Shown: in pieces, positions 48,989-63,400 of the stretch
Layout: every line of letters begins with the position of its first letter
How positions within the stretch are numbered: the stretch's first letter is position 1
From: Candidatus Zixiibacteriota bacterium
GTDB taxonomy: Bacteria > Zixibacteria > MSB-5A5 > GN15 > FEB-12
Reading direction: 5' to 3'
Length of the DNA stretch: 64,000 nucleotides
NCBI GenBank assembly: GCA_029860345.1
Contig: JAOUBJ010000008.1
Location: forward strand, 62,001-126,000
Notes under the pieces: generated by a model
What the model was told of the DNA's origin: nothing
What the model saw: only the letters and a program-made list of their open reading frames with translations
The model's database searches: none
Position numbers and translations under genes: made by a program

Positions 48989-51742
48989 CTACTTGAGTAG
49001 AATCATCTTCTTGGACTGGCTATCGGTGCCTCGGCTCAATTTGTAGAAGTAGACGCCGGAAGCGACAGGTTGTCCGGTATGGGCTGAGCCGTCCCACTCG
49101 ACTTCGTAGGTACCGGGAATCTGGACTTTATCGACCAACGTGACCACGCGACGCCCCAGCAGATTGTAGATGGACAGATTTGTCGTTGGCAGGCTCCCAT
49201 CGGTCGGACGGCGCAACGTGTATGAGATGGTCGTCGATGGGTTGAACGGGTTGGGATAGTTCTGGTGGAGATCGAAGTTATCCGGCAGCGCGGCGTGCGG
49301 GTCGCCGTCGTCGACACCCAAAGGTATCCCACCGAAGAAGTCAACAACGCGTGCGAACAGTTCCGCCTTGGTGTTGTACGATTGATGAGTGAAGGCGTCC
49401 GAAAGATACTCGATAGGGAATGTCAACAGAATAGAATTATAGGTGGTCTGTTTCGACACTCCACAAATGTCGGTTTTGCCACCCAGGGTGAACGCAGCCT
49501 GCCCACCGGAGACGGTAGTCACCAGATCGAGCATCGACGACGGCGCCGACGGCATGTAGCGGTACTTGGTGCCATCGCCGAGTTGATTTCCGCTGACTCC
49601 CTGGAAGAACGGCCACAACAAGGAGCCGGTATAATTGGCCCCAAGGTAGTCGTTCAGAAAGCCAACATCGAGAGCATTCAGCGATTGGGCGCCGGAGATT
49701 GACGAGATCATAAGGTCTCCCCCGGCGTCAAGATACGCTTTCATGGCCGTAACATCGGCCGCCGTGAATACGTCCTCAGCCCAGTCGCCGGTGTGCCAGA
49801 AAACCTTGGGATACTTTTTGAGTTCATCCCCGGTGGGTGAACTCTTGTCCGCCTTGTGCCAGACAGAATATGGAATGCCCAGGTCGTAGTGCACCGCCTG
49901 AGTGTAGACGTTTTCATAATCGGCACCGCGGTCATCGTCGACTATCAGAATTTGGGGCGGACCGAGACTGACCTCCAGGCCAAATGTTTTCGATGTCCAG
50001 CCGTTGTAAGGAGTACCGGCTATGGAATCACACTCGATGGTCAGGGAGAAAGAATCGATAGTGGGGACAAAAGTCTCAGCCAATGTAAAAGTAATAGGGG
50101 TCAGATTGCTTTGATCTGAATCATCGAACTGCGGTGACAATAGCACCTCATCGGTATTGAATGTAACACTGGGGTGGTTCGTTTCAAGTCTGATGGTGGC
50201 ATTGTACGAAAGACGCATGGCGTTGGTCATAGTGACGTAAAAACTGATCGTCTCCCCCGGATCGAGAATGCCGTCGCCATCACCACCCGGTTGAGCGTCA
50301 TCGAAAAACACCGAATCATGATCGACCAGGAGCGGCCAGGGATGTGACCAGTCTTCATCCAGGTCGGCTGTCATGGTCATCCCGGAGTTTGAGATATTCC
50401 AGAGACCGATACGAGTGGTAACACCGTTTGAAAGGGTCCCCAAAAGATTGGTTCGTGAGTTGGGTACGCTCTGGTCGTGGAATTCACGGGAATCGCTGCT
50501 CCCCGGCCAGACATCGCCGCCATCGCCTCGGCTTCCGCCGAAAGCCAGCGCGTTTTCGCCGTCTGCTTGTTCCATGGCTACTCTGTACCACTCGGGATTC
50601 TGATTGCTTGGGCCGGGTGCCTGTTTGTCGACATGATAGATACACAATCCCGACGAAGGCAACCCAACATCGAATCCTACCTGCTGTCGATTCTCCACGA
50701 TCCAGTACTCGTAAGCGGTCGAGAGACTGTTCTGCAAGCGGTAGGCGACGCGGTTTTCTTCCACGTGTGGAAACTCAACCTGGGACATGTTGCTGTTAAC
50801 TTCCAAAAGACTCAGAAACCCTATCTCAGCTTTAGACCAGGCGGTCAGGTGGGCGGGCTGTCGGGACCCGGCGTTATAACTTCCGGTCGCCATCAGGGCC
50901 CAATCGCCCAGTCCATTTGAACCTACGGCATCGGATATATCGTAGAGGTCGGGCAAGCCCAAAAAGTGGCCATACTCATGGCAGAACACGCCGATGGGTG
51001 AGATTTCGTTGCCGGTCTCCTCCGGATTCATGGTGTAGGCGGATATTTGCACGCCGTCGATATAAACCGCGGGGATGTTGCTTTTGTGTGACCAGATACC
51101 AACGGCCCCGGCTTCGGCGCCGGCCCCGGCGTGGATTATCACCAAGCCATCACAGATATCATCGTTGTTGATGTCGTACTGGTTCCAGTTTGCCACATGC
51201 AGCCGGGCCGAATCCAGGGCATCGGCTGTCAACTCGGGTCCGCGGCTAAGACCATCGTCATTCCCTACGTAGTAGGCGTATGGCAGGGTCATACGGTAGG
51301 GGCCAAGAATGTCACCTCTAACAACAAAATCACCGTAGGAGTTTTCTTTGTAGTAGTCGACCATGGAACCGGTCGGGTTGTGGTAGTCATTGGAGAAGAG
51401 AACGGAGTCAAACTGAGCAGGCGTTGTGCTGACCCCTGCGGACATCTCATTGTCGCTGAAGTCCACCAATATGACGATAATGGAGGCCTGGAAAGTTTGA
51501 TCACTCGCCAGAGCCAGGGGACGGCCGAAGCGATCCAGGCTGATCGGCGTGTGCTCTTCGGCGCTGCACCCACCTGCTTCTTTGAAGGCCCTGAGATTGG
51601 CCAGCTTCTGTTCAAGGACACCCTCGGCTTTCCACTTCTCAATCGCATCGGGATGGGGCGCCACTGCCGACACCGGCGAGGTTAGAATCACGAAACCTAT
51701 CAACAGTATGATCAGTAATACTCCGAGCCTGGATTTTTCCAT
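48989..51742 (-). CDS. secreted M6-family metalloprotease with Por/T9SS-type C-terminal tail
   Basis: From the ATG at 51742, nine bases after AAAGG, the protein has 917 residues with a signal peptide (MEKSRLGVLLIILLIGFVILTSPVSA). The M6 (immune inhibitor A-like) catalytic domain has the zinc motif HEYGHFLGLPDLYD at about residue 250. Central beta domains follow, then a region with a GATase-like open sheet (PPQILIVDDDRGADYENVYTQAV). The last 90 residues are a FlgD-like Por secretion tail (LHQNYPNPFNPSTTISYTL, then GVYFYKLSRG, ending KMILLK). It is probably exported across the outer membrane. Earlier in-frame ATGs at 51748, 51760 and 51769 cannot be excluded. Confidence 0.87.
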   Translation of the reverse strand: MEKSRLGVLLIILLIGFVILTSPVSAVAPHPDAIEKWKAEGVLEQKLANLRAFKEAGGCSAEEHTPISLDRFGRPLALASDQTFQASIIVILVDFSDNEMSAGVSTTPAQFDSVLFSNDYHNPTGSMVDYYKENSYGDFVVRGDILGPYRMTLPYAYYVGNDDGLSRGPELTADALDSARLHVANWNQYDINNDDICDGLVIIHAGAGAEAGAVGIWSHKSNIPAVYIDGVQISAYTMNPEETGNEISPIGVFCHEYGHFLGLPDLYDISDAVGSNGLGDWALMATGSYNAGSRQPAHLTAWSKAEIGFLSLLEVNSNMSQVEFPHVEENRVAYRLQNSLSTAYEYWIVENRQQVGFDVGLPSSGLCIYHVDKQAPGPSNQNPEWYRVAMEQADGENALAFGGSRGDGGDVWPGSSDSREFHDQSVPNSRTNLLGTLSNGVTTRIGLWNISNSGMTMTADLDEDWSHPWPLLVDHDSVFFDDAQPGGDGDGILDPGETISFYVTMTNAMRLSYNATIRLETNHPSVTFNTDEVLLSPQFDDSDQSNLTPITFTLAETFVPTIDSFSLTIECDSIAGTPYNGWTSKTFGLEVSLGPPQILIVDDDRGADYENVYTQAVHYDLGIPYSVWHKADKSSPTGDELKKYPKVFWHTGDWAEDVFTAADVTAMKAYLDAGGDLMISSISGAQSLNALDVGFLNDYLGANYTGSLLWPFFQGVSGNQLGDGTKYRYMPSAPSSMLDLVTTVSGGQAAFTLGGKTDICGVSKQTTYNSILLTFPIEYLSDAFTHQSYNTKAELFARVVDFFGGIPLGVDDGDPHAALPDNFDLHQNYPNPFNPSTTISYTLRRPTDGSLPTTNLSIYNLLGRRVVTLVDKVQIPGTYEVEWDGSAHTGQPVASGVYFYKLSRGTDSQSKKMILLK

Positions 51743-51822
51743 CGTCATCAACCTTTGCATGTCTTTCATATTTTCATCTCGTTCGACCAACATTCCACTT
51801 GAACATTATAACCTTAAGCGGC

Positions 51823-54720
51823 CTATTTCAAAAGCAGCATTTTCCTGGAGTGCGATGTTTGGGAGGTACTCAACCTGTAAAAGTACACACCACTGGCAAT
51901 CCGACCGCCTGAAGCATTGGTCGCGTTCCATAAGACCTCGTGCGATCCGGCCGGCAAACGACCGTCGACAAGCTGTGAAACCTTCTGTCCCAACGCATTG
52001 TACACCACCAGAGAGACGTCCGAGGCGGTGGAAAGGCTGAATGAAATCGTCGTGGTCGGATTGAACGGGTTGGGATAATTCTGGTGCAGAGTCACCGCTG
52101 TCGGCAGGCTGCTTTGGTGCCCTTCATCGACCGCGGTTGCCAGGTCGAAGCGCTCACGAGCGTGCTGCGCGTTTTCATACAGCTCGGCCAGATCGGTCCC
52201 GATCACTACGGCAAAAGCCACTTCGTTGGAATCCCATCCCTGAATGGCAAACGAGCCGGAGTTCAGAAACATCATGAGGTCTCCGGTAAGACCGGGATCG
52301 TGTTGCGTGGCATCCAAAGCAATCAAGTCAAATTTGTCGGCGCGCGAAAAACCACGCTTGGCAGCGCCGTTGTCCAAAGACTTGAAAGAGTCGAGATTCT
52401 TCAAAGAGACCAGGCCGACCAGAGGACCGTCGCCGCCTGTCTGGTACATAAGAGCGGCCCCATCGTCGTAAACGACCTGATCGCCGGCTATATCCAGATC
52501 AAAATCGGTTAGGAATCCAAAGTGCAGACCAGTCAACCATCCGGGAGTCATGTTACGCATTTGGAATCTAAAGATGATAAAACCGCCGTCATCGACATAA
52601 CTAATAGTCTCTTGGGTCAATTCAATCGGGATAGGTATCTCCGAACGCGAGTCGGCATAACCGGCGGTTACATGCAGACCACCTTCCTCGTCAATCGTAG
52701 ATGTACTCAGATCCACCGTTGGCTCGTAGTCGGAAACCTGGTACCTACCCTGGGCATCCCTTATCGAGCTGGAAAGCTGCAGGGCGTTCCGACCCAGCAC
52801 GATACCGGCTTCGTAGAGCAGGTTGTCGGAGCCGTCGACGCGCAGCCCCTTGCCGCCCGCGTTGTACAGCGAACCTGTGCCGAATCCGAACTGGGCGAAG
52901 TCCGAGACTGAGAAGCCAATGCGTGAACTGCTGTGGTCGGCGATGTGACCGCTTGGCGGCACACCCACGGTGCCAACGAAGGCAATAGTATCTAAACTAC
53001 CGCCCTCCGGTGTTTGCAGGTACAGCACGAAATCGACCGTGTGGCCGTGGTGGAAACCGGAGTCGTATCGGATTTGATACGGGGCCATACTAAGGGCACT
53101 ACTGCCGCCGACACCGAAGAGATAGGTCGCCGAATCAGACATTACTACCACTCCGGCCGTACCGGTTTCGAGAACGCCGATCACCTCGGCGATATTGCCG
53201 GCCGGATTGTTTATCAGAATATCCAGACCGAATTCTTCACCGGGCCAGGCGATACCGTCGTCGCTGACCTGGGTGCTGGTGATCTTAAAGCTCGGAGATA
53301 CCGGCAAGGGAAGCAAAGCGAGCAGGCGTGAAGCATCGACCAGGCCATTGCCGTAAATGTTGTCCTCACCGGTGGCGCCGAGGTCCTCGGTCGCCTGCAA
53401 AAGAGCCTGCTTTATTTCCTCGACCGTGGCATCGGGGCTGTACTGGCGCATCAGCACCACTAGTCCGGCGATGTAAGGGGCGGCCATCGACGTGCCGCTC
53501 ATATAAGTATAGCCGCCACCTTTCTGTGACGAACGGACACTTACGCCGGGTGCTACCAGCTCGGGCTTGATCTGAGTCTGATCGCACGATGAAGGTCCCC
53601 GGCTGGAAAAGGAAGCTATATCCTTGTCCATGTTGACCGCTCCCACCGCCAGCGAGTTGGTGGGGGTGGAAGCCTGATCGGCCGGGCTGCGAAGTGACAT
53701 CGGGTCGGGACCCTCGTTGCCGGCGGCAAAGATAGTGACGATTCCGGCTGCTTCGACAACGTCTACGATTTGTGTGAAAGTTTCATCGCAGGGGGCAAAG
53801 AGTCCTTTCGGCACACCCCAACTGTTCAGAATAACGTCCGGGACATCATCGGTCGTACTGGTATCACCGTCCGGATTGAGCGCCCATTGAAAGGCTTCGA
53901 TAATATCGGACAGAGTGGTCTGGAGCGGACGTCCCTGGTCGATAACACCGGCCGTGATCCACTGTGCATGCGGCGCTACGCCAAAAGTGTCTGCTTCGGT
54001 TGCGCCAACCATCAGACCCATGGTGTGAGTACCGTGACCGGCTGCATCATAGGGCAGCTCATTCGGGGCTACCTTGGAAAACCAGGTCGAGGACAAAGGC
54101 TCTGAGTTTCCGCGCCACTTGTCGGCCAACGCCGGGTGGTCCCAGTCTACACCGGTATCAAAGGAACAGATTAAACGACCGGTGCCTTTCAGACCCTGCT
54201 GCCACAACGTGGGAACTTTCAACAGCGCCAACTCATTCGACACCGACGATACAGCCACCGAGGCCGGAGATTCAGACACCGGTGTCACGTAGTCCAGGGT
54301 GAGGTTTTCCACCACTAATCTCACCCCCGGCTGGGCCGTCAACTCAAGAATCCGGTCGGGTGACAGAGTGGCCGTGAAAGCAGGCACGACCCAGTGCCTG
54401 AGCACCGGTTGGCTGGAACTTTCGATCAGGAACCGATGAATACGCTCGGTTGATTCTTTGGACTCATGCAACCGTTCGCCCAAAACACGTTTGATCCTCT
54501 GCCCTCGTCTCAAACCGGCCATGGATTCCAGTTGAACCAAACCTGTGGGTAGTTCATCTTCCAGGAATACGACTACCGGAATCGGACCCCTGGCGCCGGA
54601 CCAAGCCGATACTGCTATCTTGTCTTCCAGGCTGGGACCGAGGGCTTCCCCGGTCGCTGCCGCCAGGTTGAGCGATCCGCAGCAGAGGGCTATTATGACT
54701 ATAATTGATACTCGTCTCAT
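51823..54720 (-). CDS. secreted subtilisin-like (S8) protease with Por/T9SS-type tail
   Basis: The 965-residue protein has a signal peptide (MRRVSIIVIIALCCGSLNLAAA), an inhibitor-like prodomain (about 60-150), and an S8 catalytic domain with Asp in CSFDTGVDWDHP (about 187), His in AAGHGTHTMGLMVG (about 232) and Ser in MSGTSMAAPYIAGLVVLM (about 408). The oxyanion asparagine is in AAGNEGPDP. Beta domains follow, and the tail repeats the neighbour's pattern: LHQNYPNPFNPTTTISFSL, GVYFYRLSTS and KMLLLK at the end. AGGAAG stands just before the ATG. The M6 protease lies 80 bases downstream in the same direction. Confidence 0.92.
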   Translation of the reverse strand: MRRVSIIVIIALCCGSLNLAAATGEALGPSLEDKIAVSAWSGARGPIPVVVFLEDELPTGLVQLESMAGLRRGQRIKRVLGERLHESKESTERIHRFLIESSSQPVLRHWVVPAFTATLSPDRILELTAQPGVRLVVENLTLDYVTPVSESPASVAVSSVSNELALLKVPTLWQQGLKGTGRLICSFDTGVDWDHPALADKWRGNSEPLSSTWFSKVAPNELPYDAAGHGTHTMGLMVGATEADTFGVAPHAQWITAGVIDQGRPLQTTLSDIIEAFQWALNPDGDTSTTDDVPDVILNSWGVPKGLFAPCDETFTQIVDVVEAAGIVTIFAAGNEGPDPMSLRSPADQASTPTNSLAVGAVNMDKDIASFSSRGPSSCDQTQIKPELVAPGVSVRSSQKGGGYTYMSGTSMAAPYIAGLVVLMRQYSPDATVEEIKQALLQATEDLGATGEDNIYGNGLVDASRLLALLPLPVSPSFKITSTQVSDDGIAWPGEEFGLDILINNPAGNIAEVIGVLETGTAGVVVMSDSATYLFGVGGSSALSMAPYQIRYDSGFHHGHTVDFVLYLQTPEGGSLDTIAFVGTVGVPPSGHIADHSSSRIGFSVSDFAQFGFGTGSLYNAGGKGLRVDGSDNLLYEAGIVLGRNALQLSSSIRDAQGRYQVSDYEPTVDLSTSTIDEEGGLHVTAGYADSRSEIPIPIELTQETISYVDDGGFIIFRFQMRNMTPGWLTGLHFGFLTDFDLDIAGDQVVYDDGAALMYQTGGDGPLVGLVSLKNLDSFKSLDNGAAKRGFSRADKFDLIALDATQHDPGLTGDLMMFLNSGSFAIQGWDSNEVAFAVVIGTDLAELYENAQHARERFDLATAVDEGHQSSLPTAVTLHQNYPNPFNPTTTISFSLSTASDVSLVVYNALGQKVSQLVDGRLPAGSHEVLWNATNASGGRIASGVYFYRLSTSQTSHSRKMLLLK

Positions 54721-59424: not shown

Positions 59425-60417
59425 CTAAAACGCAAAGGCGAGACTAAAACGGTGAACCTGTGTCAGGATACCGAAATCCTGAAAGGCGTAGTCAACGTGA
59501 ATCTCAGCGTCGTCTCCAAACGGCACGGCCAAACCACCGCCGGCCGTGAAGCCGTCTTCGTCGTAGTTAAACCGGCGCCCTGCTCTGAGCGAGTATCGGT
59601 CGTTAAACGTGTACTCGAGGCCGGTATTGTATTTTTCCAGGTTGTCCGACGGGTGGCCACCCTCGGCGGCAAAAGTAACCAGATGATCCTCTTGTTCGAG
59701 AATATTGATCGAGCCGCCGAATTTGAAGTTGATCGGCAGGGGATATGAGTTGCTGATCATGGTCAAGTCGGGGCCGAAGTTGGTAATCACCATGGCGATT
59801 TTGAACCCACGGTGGCCCGTATCGTAGACTGTTCCCACATCTGCCGACCAGCCACTGGCGCTGTAATCATGCACGAACTGACCGACGAATTTAACCGTGA
59901 AGCCAACCGAAAAGCGATCAGTCAGATACCTTCCGTAGCTCAGACCGAGGGCGAAATCATTCCACCCGAAGGTCCTTCCGGTTCCCCCCGGCTCACCACT
60001 ACCCCAGGTGCGCTCGATCATTTCACCCGACGACAGCCCGTACATACTGACTCCCAGAACGCCACCGATGGCCTCAAGCGGCATACCGGCGCCCAAAAAA
60101 CCATATCCGACGTCGGCAGGCATGTCAATATATGTCACGGCCACCTCGCGCCCGTAGAGCGAGGTCAATCCGGCCGGGTTGTAATAAACGGCCGAAATGT
60201 CATCCGTGACGGCCGTGAAGGCCTCAGCCATTCCCATGGCCCGAGCTGAAACACCGAGTTCCAGAAACTGAGCGCCGGTCGTTCCGACCTTGGCCTGAGC
60301 ACTGACCTCACTGGGCCACCATACCACAGTGGCACAAAGCAAGAGCAGTCCCACCAGCACAATTCGGGAATGATTCGCCCGCTTCATCGGAAACGAACTA
60401 TTATGTCTCACAAGCAT
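59425..60417 (-). CDS. PorV/PorQ-family outer membrane barrel protein
   Basis: From the ATG at 60417 (GAGG five bases upstream) the protein has 330 residues; ATGs at 60453 and 60387 are alternatives. After a signal peptide (ending SEVSAQA) comes the family hallmark GAQFLELGVSARAMGMAEAFTAVTDDISAVYYNPAGLTSL, followed by amphipathic strands and a terminal aromatic residue (FSLAFAF). PorV-type proteins shuttle cargo in type IX secretion; other members are general outer membrane barrels. It sits between the receptor and lipoprotein genes in one operon. Confidence 0.88.
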   Translation of the reverse strand: MLVRHNSSFPMKRANHSRIVLVGLLLLCATVVWWPSEVSAQAKVGTTGAQFLELGVSARAMGMAEAFTAVTDDISAVYYNPAGLTSLYGREVAVTYIDMPADVGYGFLGAGMPLEAIGGVLGVSMYGLSSGEMIERTWGSGEPGGTGRTFGWNDFALGLSYGRYLTDRFSVGFTVKFVGQFVHDYSASGWSADVGTVYDTGHRGFKIAMVITNFGPDLTMISNSYPLPINFKFGGSINILEQEDHLVTFAAEGGHPSDNLEKYNTGLEYTFNDRYSLRAGRRFNYDEDGFTAGGGLAVPFGDDAEIHVDYAFQDFGILTQVHRFSLAFAF

Positions 60418-60467
60418 CTCATCCTCATCTATTGTAAATTCAGACTTCTTCATCAAACAAAGGTTGC

Positions 60468-63400
60468 CTATAGGTTGACCTCGATCCCCAATCGAATCTG
60501 ACGACCGTAGTCCCAGTTGTATGGATTCAGATCATAAGGCGTACCACCTTTAATGATCTGACTTTGATTCTGTCGCGTGTCCGGACGACCGGTGTTGGAA
60601 TACACAGTGTTGACATTACGACTGTCAAATATATTCTCGACCCACATGATCATACTGTAATCGAGCCCAACAAACTCGAAGTCCTTGGTGAACCGGACAT
60701 CGACATTGAATATCCCCGGTTTGCGCATTGAGTTGCGCTGGATGTCCTCGCCCGTGGTGAGGGCCAGGTTGGGGAAGGATCGATCGGGTGTGAACGGACG
60801 GCCGCTCTCAATGATCAGGTTCATGGCCAATGACCAACCGTTGGGAATCGGTATGCCGAACAAACGCGGCTTGACCGAAGTAGGCACAAACACCTGGATG
60901 TTAGCGTTGATACGGTGTCTGATATCGTTGTCAAGAGCCGCCTCGGAAAGGGGCTCACGCGAAAGCTCGAAGTCGCTCATGTAGTTCTGATTGGTCTGCG
61001 ATGCCTTGCCGAAAGCGAAGGCGTAGACATAACTCAACTGACCGTTCACATAGCCACCGCCACGTTTTTCAAGAGTCAACTCAAAACCACGGCTGCGACC
61101 GTAATCTGAGTTCTGATACTGCTGGCGAGTCAGACCACCGACCCGAACCTGAGCCGAGTTAATCTTGTCGAATTCGTCCTTAAAGTAACCGGAGACGTCC
61201 AGCGAGTAGTTTTCGGACATGGCATACTTGACACCAAATGAATACTGAATCGTCTTCTGGTAGTCCAGGTTGTAGTTGCCGATCACAACGTTCTGAGCCA
61301 CCGACGAAGTGTTCCGCTTGTACATATACTCCAGCGACGGAAGCTGGAAGAAGTGACCATAGTTGAAATGGATTTTGGCCTTGTCCGAAATCGGGTAAGA
61401 GAATCCGATTCGGGGTGAGAATTTCTGACGGTCACCAAGGATCGTTCCGGACCCAAGATCGTCGTTCTTGGCCACATCCACCAAACCGTACCGATCCTGC
61501 AGGAAGAAGTCCCAGCGGAATCCAAGCGAGGCGATCATGGAACCATACTCAAGCTTGTCACGGAAGTAGACACTGCCGCGGTACGGTTCATACTCAAACA
61601 TATCTCTGAACGATCCGCGGCCGGGGTAAGGACCGCCATCCTCACGACCACTGTAGGGATAGTATGGTTTTTCGATTTCTTCGTAGTCGAACTGATTGGA
61701 CTCCATCGAGATGCCACCTTTCAGTTCGTGCGAACCCAATTGCCAGAAGACCTTGCCTTCCAGACGGTAGGTGTCGGTGCTTCGGAAATGCCACACTGCC
61801 GTCTCGTCGTAGTTGCCCGGGTTCAGGAAGTTGGAACTGCCCCCGTAGTCGTAGGCGCCGTTTCCGTTTCGATCCACAAACGGCTCACCTTGATCATAGC
61901 GAGCGTTCGGCGGGCTGTAGACGCCGTCGCCGTTTAGATCGATATATGGAATGCCCGGCTCCCAGGGATCCAGCGGGCCGTCGTGTTTCCCGTTGTCGTT
62001 GTAGTCCATATTGTCGGCGCCGACCGACATGACAAAAAGATCAATACCGGGATCGTAGAGGTTGTTGCTATTAATGTCAACATACGGCTCACCGACAATC
62101 GAGTCTCCATCGCGATACACTTCCGGGTCACGATTGTTGATTCGACTGACACGACCCTCGTCCAGGATTCCATTGCCGTTTTTATCTCTCAGGAAGTCGC
62201 CCTGGTCCCAGACACCGTTGCCGTTGAGATCAATGAACGGCTCGCCTTCCAGATTGTCGATTATGCCGTTCTCATTGAAGCGAAAGTCCGAAAAAGTGAA
62301 TGTTCCACCTTGCTGGTTGATCTCGATAAGGCCGCTCTCACCATAAGTGTAGGCGGGTCCGGTGAAGTCGAAACCATAGCTCGCGGTGTCGGGGAACAAA
62401 TTGATGATCGGCTCCGGCGGGTCGTAGACACCGTTACCGTTGCGGTCATCGTAATCTTCCCACTCCGTGTTCAGCATGAAGTCTTCGGGATCAAGCCCGT
62501 GCCCGGGACTGGCCGGATCGCCCGGTCGGCGGTTCAGACTGTTCTTGGTGTAAGAAATAACCGCCTCGTAGTTCATGTTGCGCGACACTGACTGCGAAAC
62601 CTCAAGCGAGGCCGACTTCCAGCGATCAACCTGAACCGGAGCGGTGTTCGGTGAATAACGATAACTCCAGTTGAAGTGCGTCCACCGATTCTGAGAATCT
62701 TTGTATGAGAAAATAAGCTTCAGGTTCTGCAGAGGCCTGAACTTCAGGTTGGCCATCCAGTAGTACTTATTGTTCTTACGTTCAGGAACATCCAGCCCGA
62801 ACAAATTGAACGACCCATAATTGCGGCGAGTCAAAGGAGAGTCGTATGACTCGTACTGGTAGATGCCGTCGTCTTTATCGACCTCGCCATAGAAATAGTA
62901 GGTGAACTCTTTGTCTGCCATGTAGCCCAATCCGAGGGCCGGCAGGATCTTGTTTTTGAAAATCGGGTCCGGACCGCTGACGGATGCACGAACATAATCG
63001 TTGTTACGCGAGTATTTGTTAAGCGAGTTGTTACCGAAGTCATCGGTGATAAACTGGAAATTGATCCGGGTGTTATCTTTCGAACCTGTTTGCGTGGTAA
63101 TCTTGACGATACCCGACAAAGCGTTGCCATACTCCGGATCGAATCCGTCTTTGATAACCGTAAACTCCTGGATGGAACCTGACACCAACGAAAGATTGGC
63201 CCCGGCTTCACCCAGACCACCCAACGGATCACCGATCGGCACACCATCAACGATGTAGGCAACCTCACCGGCGCGTCCACCGCGAATGAAAATCTCACCG
63301 GAAGCGTTGGTCACAACACCAGCCACCTGGGTCAACAACTCATCGACCGAGGTTACCGGCTGGGTCATGATCTGTTCCTTGGTGATGGTGAGCTGGTGAG

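Follow-up and report, generated by a model that had tools for sequence, protein, structure and literature searches.

A conserved array of calcium-type loops in predicted extracellular loop L4 of a TonB-dependent receptor of Zixibacteria

The receptor gene and the place of its insert

The window analysed here, a 64,000-nucleotide stretch of the genome of a Candidatus Zixiibacteriota bacterium, carries a putative operon that opens with a gene for a TonB-dependent receptor and continues with genes for a PorV/PorQ-family outer-membrane protein and a putative lipoprotein (Table 1). The CarboxypepD_reg-like domain, the plug and the barrel of the receptor each score above their Pfam cut-offs, the plug at 42.6 bits with PF07715 (cut-off 23.9) and the beta-barrel at 62.6 bits with PF00593 (cut-off 27), and the sequence EVITVRG near residues 121–127, judged by eye, resembles a TonB box. 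Two narrower family models stay below their cut-offs on the receptor, namely the SusC/RagA model TIGR04056 (63.8 bits, cut-off 368.25) and the BtuB model TIGR01779 (30.9 bits, cut-off 599.7), as does the PorV equivalog NF033710 on the downstream gene (59.8 bits, cut-off 250).

Table 1. Features of the receptor locus, in positions of the window and residues of the receptor
Feature	Window positions	Strand	Receptor residues	Basis or remark
TonB-dependent receptor, 1114 aa	60468..63812	-		ORF, Pfam domains, predicted barrel
Receptor parts: signal; CarboxypepD_reg-like domain; plug; 22-strand barrel			CarboxypepD_reg-like domain 36-123; plug 142-234	
Extracellular loop L4 (predicted)	61797..62525	-	430-672	bounded by predicted b7 (413-429) and b8 (673-692)
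Array of calcium-type loops	61848..62447	-	456-655	strict motif and orthologue alignment
Loop 1, DRNGNGVYD	62421..62447	-	456-464	strict; position 12 is E467, invariant in 44
Loop 2, RFNENGIID	62256..62282	-	511-519	degenerate
Loop 3, DLNGNGVWD	62205..62231	-	528-536	strict; position 12 is D539, D/E in 44/44
Loop 4, DKNGNGILD	62160..62186	-	543-551	strict
Loop 5, DINSNNLYD	62052..62078	-	579-587	strict
Loop 6, DYNDNGKHD	61980..62006	-	603-611	strict
Loop 7, DLNGDGVYS	61914..61940	-	625-633	strict
Loop 8, DRNGNGAYD	61848..61874	-	647-655	strict
Four-loop module	61845..62123	-	564-656	overlaps the insert segment modelled at pLDDT 91-95
PorV/PorQ-family outer-membrane protein	59425..60456	-		next gene downstream; NF033709 199.4 bits, cut-off 90
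Putative lipoprotein, 713 aa	57264..59405	-		third in the putative operon; matches no known family

The structure of the whole protein was predicted with AlphaFold2 from an alignment of 44 sequences (mean pLDDT 63.5, pTM 0.58), and the model contains 22 barrel strands, counted by hand from the predicted secondary structure, with the insert seated between strands 7 and 8. In known TonB receptors the final strand ends on the periplasmic side, which makes the b7–b8 loop the extracellular loop L4; given the same orientation of the last strand here, the array insert is loop L4 of the modelled receptor. Model confidence is middling, pLDDT lying below 50 in the plug and mostly below 50 at residues 470–525, which makes the initial third of the insert uncertain. 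For the barrel, Foldseek found solved TonB receptors at E values down to 1.8e-19, and structural alignment on them gave Z scores as high as 24.1 (470 residues, rmsd 4.2). The initial annotation had described a TonB-type receptor with an insertion in a probable surface loop and had proposed structure prediction to place it; the 22-strand model, with which homology agrees, puts the insert on the extracellular side.

The coding sequence of the array is also overlain by an antisense open reading frame of 202 residues (window 61983–62591, plus strand), which is probably a by-product of the recurring GAY, AAY and GGN codons.

Loop sequence, ligand conservation and predicted fold

The strict loop motif D-x-[ND]-x-[ND]-[GN]-x-x-[DNES] occurs seven times in the receptor, and the eight loops initially annotated therefore stand as an array at the place assigned to it, composed of seven strict loops and one degenerate loop. 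Position 1 of the latter, loop 2, is Arg in 41 of the 44 orthologues. The orthologue set comes from GTDB species genomes, whose scan yielded 52 loci, labelled mostly as Zixibacteria or GN15 or simply as "bacterium" and in a few cases by other names; 43 near-full-length orthologues and the window receptor make up the 44-row alignment, from which the partial loci L028, L031, L035, L037, L038, L042, L044, L047 and L048 were excluded. All 44 rows hold five to seven strict loops and every loop is kept individually, so the proposed survey of repeat number finds the array preserved throughout, at five to seven strict copies rather than eight. The suggestion that the loops arose by internal duplication fares less well, as Tandem Repeats Finder reports no DNA repeat at the array and each loop is conserved in its own right; recent duplication or copy-number variation is rejected on the absence of a DNA repeat together with the strict-loop counts, and any internal duplication is ancient at best.

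In EF-hand, dockerin and thrombospondin type 3 loops, calcium is liganded by side-chain oxygens at positions 1, 3, 5 and 9. The initial annotation had allowed for loops that lack oxygen ligands; by sequence, a side-chain oxygen is present in 1232 of 1232 residues at the 28 ligand positions across the 44 orthologues, against 2426 of 5910 in the non-loop columns of the insert. With a mean majority residue of 0.95, compared with 0.71 in other loop columns and 0.65 in the insert outside the loops, the ligand columns are the best-conserved portion of the insert in these 44 rows. The insert overall and the barrel are similarly conserved, the mean identity to the window receptor being 0.63 for the former and 0.61 and 0.69 for the two parts of the latter. 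An acid at position 12 is found in loops 1 and 3 (44/44 each) and in degenerate loop 2, and loops 4–8 have no acid majority there; some sites thus appear incomplete as written, namely loop 2 by its degeneracy and five of the seven strict loops by their position 12. The insert is a strongly acidic stretch of about 220 residues with a net charge of −34. That oxygens are kept at all ligand positions of an acidic, predicted extracellular segment strongly implies that the loops bind calcium, and Ca2+ is very probably the ion held.

It is very improbable that the insert is an acidic low-complexity linker that binds no metal and resembles calcium loops by composition. The lack of any curated match for the insert in Pfam and NCBIfam would suit such a linker, whereas its seven strict motifs exceed the maximum of four (mean 0.17) in 10,000 composition-preserving shuffles of the 233-residue insert, 5,000 shuffles of the whole protein gave at most two, and both the placement of the highest conservation in the ligand columns and the high pLDDT of the insert model speak against it. 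Folded alone, the insert reaches a mean pLDDT of 77.6, with residues 569–649 at 91–95, and this confident part contains no helix of four or more residues and no strand of three or more. The spacing of oxygen ligands in DxNxNGxxD is that of EF-hand, dockerin and thrombospondin type 3 loops; unlike in an EF-hand, no flanking helix of four or more residues appears in the insert model, predicted without metal, and no EF-hand, dockerin or thrombospondin type 3 model is among the four weak Pfam matches listed at E up to 10. Comparison with known folds gave a best Foldseek E of 4.3 among the matches listed and no Z of 2 or above among 16 aligned PDB chains, and the array profile met PDB sequences at a best E of 0.18 among the matches listed; for a domain that lacks secondary structure, such an absence of matches says little.

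The confident part of the model nearly coincides with a four-loop module (residues 564–656) that recurs, at 61% and 51% identity, in two small proteins of the same genome (L068, 8285–9346 and 13903–14946, minus strand). These proteins are otherwise unmatched; the lipobox rule, applied by eye, reads both as putative lipoproteins, the second with an atypical residue before the cysteine. Open reading frames of 330–382 residues match the array profile at least 15 times in at least 12 genomes of the phylum. Recurrence of the module in small putative lipoproteins is what a shared surface-interaction module might display and, together with the surface exposure of L4, is compatible with the array acting as a calcium-dependent adhesive or cross-linker to cells, minerals, LPS or a surface layer. 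We nevertheless consider attachment distinctly unlikely, as the array is present once within an otherwise ordinary receptor and is strictly conserved in the 44 orthologues, unlike many adhesins, which are variable.

Distribution, origin and neighbouring genes

Two profiles were used to follow the array and its receptor, an array profile built from 36 of the 44 rows and a loop-free barrel profile built from 19. Within the phylum the former matches 126 of 132 genomes (77 of the 78 good ones) and, with weaker scores, 20 of 254 genomes outside it, where part of the matches are other kinds of protein; the latter, at E 1e-30, matches 130/132 and 51/254, respectively. Non-phylum receptors were compared at all 16 places among the barrel-profile matches listed and in 20 hand-picked, more distant cases. 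Thirteen of these 16 closest receptors carry 4–13 loops in an L4 of 187–571 residues and 0–3 loops elsewhere, L4 of G235 being counted as 216 or 208 residues; G232 has a single loop in an L4 of 111 residues, and G234 and G160 have none there. In the 20 distant receptors L4 spans 31–147 residues with at most one loop, and in two paralogues from the receptor's own genome (921 and 985 residues) it spans 58 and 75 residues with no loop. Since the array is near-universal in the phylum and recurs in L4 of related receptors outside, it appears to be an old, conserved part of the receptor; the hint that it might be a trait individual to one receptor is not borne out, as the array is phylum-wide and common to receptors beyond the phylum. 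Conservation this close to universal in one phylum suggests that the array serves a core function of the envelope and not the uptake of a niche nutrient.

These figures bear on two other roles that L4 might have. Its loop-bound Ca2+ or acidic surface could capture the transported ligand, be it a polyanion, a polysaccharide, a metal chelate or a metal ion, and hand it to the pore, much as Ca2+ takes part in cobalamin binding by BtuB. The predicted position at the mouth of a transporter and the net charge of the insert agree with capture, and an excerpt of PMC7360065 reports that Ca2+ raises the cobalamin affinity of BtuB, which falls 1000-fold at sub-saturating Ca2+. Still, near-identical loops in 126 of 132 genomes and 4–13 loops in relatives are what one would expect of a scaffold more than of a single specific pocket, and capture seems unlikely. 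Alternatively, L4 could be an aid to assembly with no later role, unfolded in the periplasm and folding on Ca2+ outside, so that it pulls itself through or locks the barrel, by analogy with RTX ratchets. The acidity of the domain, its metal-type sites and its near lack of secondary structure would suit this; the paralogues and many relatives, however, build the same barrel with short L4 loops (31–147 residues). The barrel fold thus does not depend on the array, and we regard an assembly aid as clearly improbable.

The tree was built on the C-terminal barrel with 48 rows, 23 of them with the array. The array requires three changes on it, and none of 500 shuffles is as low, on which grounds horizontal spread of the array is not favoured. 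A single array clade is not rejected (p-AU 0.155), and one origin is thereby not established. We read this as one old gain followed by losses, with G235 perhaps separate, which falls short of proof.

A PorV/PorQ-family match adjoins the receptor in 51 of 52 loci, the exception being L035, where the contig ends inside the receptor, and the 713-aa lipoprotein is matched in 46 of 52. In relatives outside the phylum and in its deep branches a further gene, termed here gene2 (about 740–1130 residues), lies between the receptor and the PorV-family gene. The C-terminus of its product weakly resembles those of type IX secretion (T9SS) substrates (PorZ model, E 2.9e-8 at best, below the curated cut-off), with no match in two of five proteins scanned; against Pfam two of three relatives had no match and one a weak match, and the family had no match in PDB. 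The receptor's own genome holds about ten near-full-length gene2 relatives scattered elsewhere (L132–L137 and further places), as well as SprA (617.8 bits joined, cut-off 200; found in none of 14 control genomes), which together make a type IX route plausible. Two peptidases of families M6 and S8, whose type IX sorting tails score over the cut-off of TIGR04183, are encoded near the receptor operon (window 48989–51793 and 51823–54720, minus strand).

The partners are not confined to receptors with the array. A PorV-like match was found at 12 of 17 array loci vs 13 of 25 array-less loci, and a gene2-like reading frame at 15 of 17 array loci and at 12 of 20 array-less loci of a second set, as well as in all five other array-less stretches, including those of both own-genome paralogues. 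Partner genes as a specific explanation of the array are not supported, given the same partners beside array-less receptors, and the gene module is accordingly wider than the array; gene content alone does not show the array to be a docking element. The paralogues (L070 and L071, on C5 and C2 of the genome) each adjoin a gene2-like reading frame, which suggests that every receptor comes with a surface partner of its own. Elsewhere in the genome (L069 on C16, 2736–4901, plus strand) lies a 721-aa reading frame that over its first ~200 residues shares 61% identity with the signal, CarboxypepD and early plug regions of the receptor and continues, by eye, into a domain like von Willebrand A (VWA), forming a chimera of receptor N-terminus and VWA.

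A proposed calcium-built platform and its counterparts in known systems

The best overall explanation, in our assessment as probable as not, is that the array makes L4 a calcium-structured platform that docks a partner. L4 would have expanded into its acidic stretch to become a calcium-structured extracellular domain, each EF- or dockerin-type loop holding Ca2+ through the oxygens at positions 1, 3, 5 and 9, with position 12 added in loops 1 and 3. As no secondary structure is predicted, the metals would carry the fold, bound Ca2+ substituting for an absent core and absent secondary structure, and folding might reach completion only after export, with Ca2+ at hand outside the cell; among the roles initially suggested for the loops, calcium-dependent folding fits best. 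Ca2+ would then stiffen L4 into a platform above the pore, and a rigid platform is somewhat probable. The platform would in turn dock or orient over the barrel a surface partner, either the lipoprotein encoded alongside or a surface protein whose C-terminus is T9SS-like, in a way that may be likened to lipoprotein lids on SusC-like transporters. Docking is a tentative part of this scheme, plausible yet just short of evenly balanced, and is weakened by the partners beside array-less receptors. Doubtful as a whole is the most extensive version, in which an ancient class of TonB receptors, phylum-wide and with scattered relatives, would bear as L4 an autonomous domain built around Ca2+, with no counterpart in Pfam, NCBIfam or PDB, on which a partner exported by the type IX route would dock outside the cell, within a module of receptor, T9SS-like surface protein, PorV-family protein and lipoprotein not found described in the papers searched, the domain having passed to separate lipoproteins.

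TonB receptors and Ca2+ at receptor loops are known already; new is a multi-loop domain of metal type as L4, phylum-wide and beyond. Our search of PMC, where mostly titles and the beginnings of abstracts were available, found no description of this operon or of a TonB receptor with an array of calcium loops. Calcium-dependent folding of L4 would be a directly testable marker trait of the receptor lineage, and in phyla that have been little studied the array receptor connects this receptor class with PorV-family proteins and with putative surface proteins of the type IX route.

The precedents of BamM, BtuB and XusAB underlie the proposed Ca2+-stiffened platform that seats a partner. To our knowledge BtuB, the cobalamin receptor of E. 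coli, has no loop array; it is likewise TonB-dependent, the receptor barrel aligns with its structures at Z 21.9 (1nqe) and 20.1 (1nqh), and its Ca2+ is held by aspartates near the extracellular pocket. Five aspartates form a cage with two such Ca2+ sites (excerpt of PMC7360065). The initial view that surface calcium-binding repeats of this kind are foreign to classical TonB receptors holds for the insert, in that it matched no curated family and no solved structure among those listed; for surface calcium as such, BtuB as excerpted in PMC7360065 is a precedent. SusC/RagA and XusA/BtuB-type receptors share the plug and the 22-strand barrel of the same fold and are capped by surface lipoprotein lids, a lid-type partner of the array receptor being putative. 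In XusAB the lipoprotein caps the receptor like a lid, with the b7–8 loop in contact, according to the accessible part of PMC13142918.

BamM, a lipoprotein of the Flavobacterium johnsoniae BAM canopy, differs from the insert in being no receptor loop. No BamM chain is among the array-profile matches listed in PDB sequences, in a searched copy that may lack it. Its C-terminal domain, as described in an excerpt of PMC12611786, is without well-defined secondary structure and is partly structured by seven metal ions assigned as calcium. The insert would resemble it as a surface domain that has almost no secondary structure in the model and for which metals are predicted, and would be a second likely case, beside BamM, of a surface domain held by metal and not by secondary structure.
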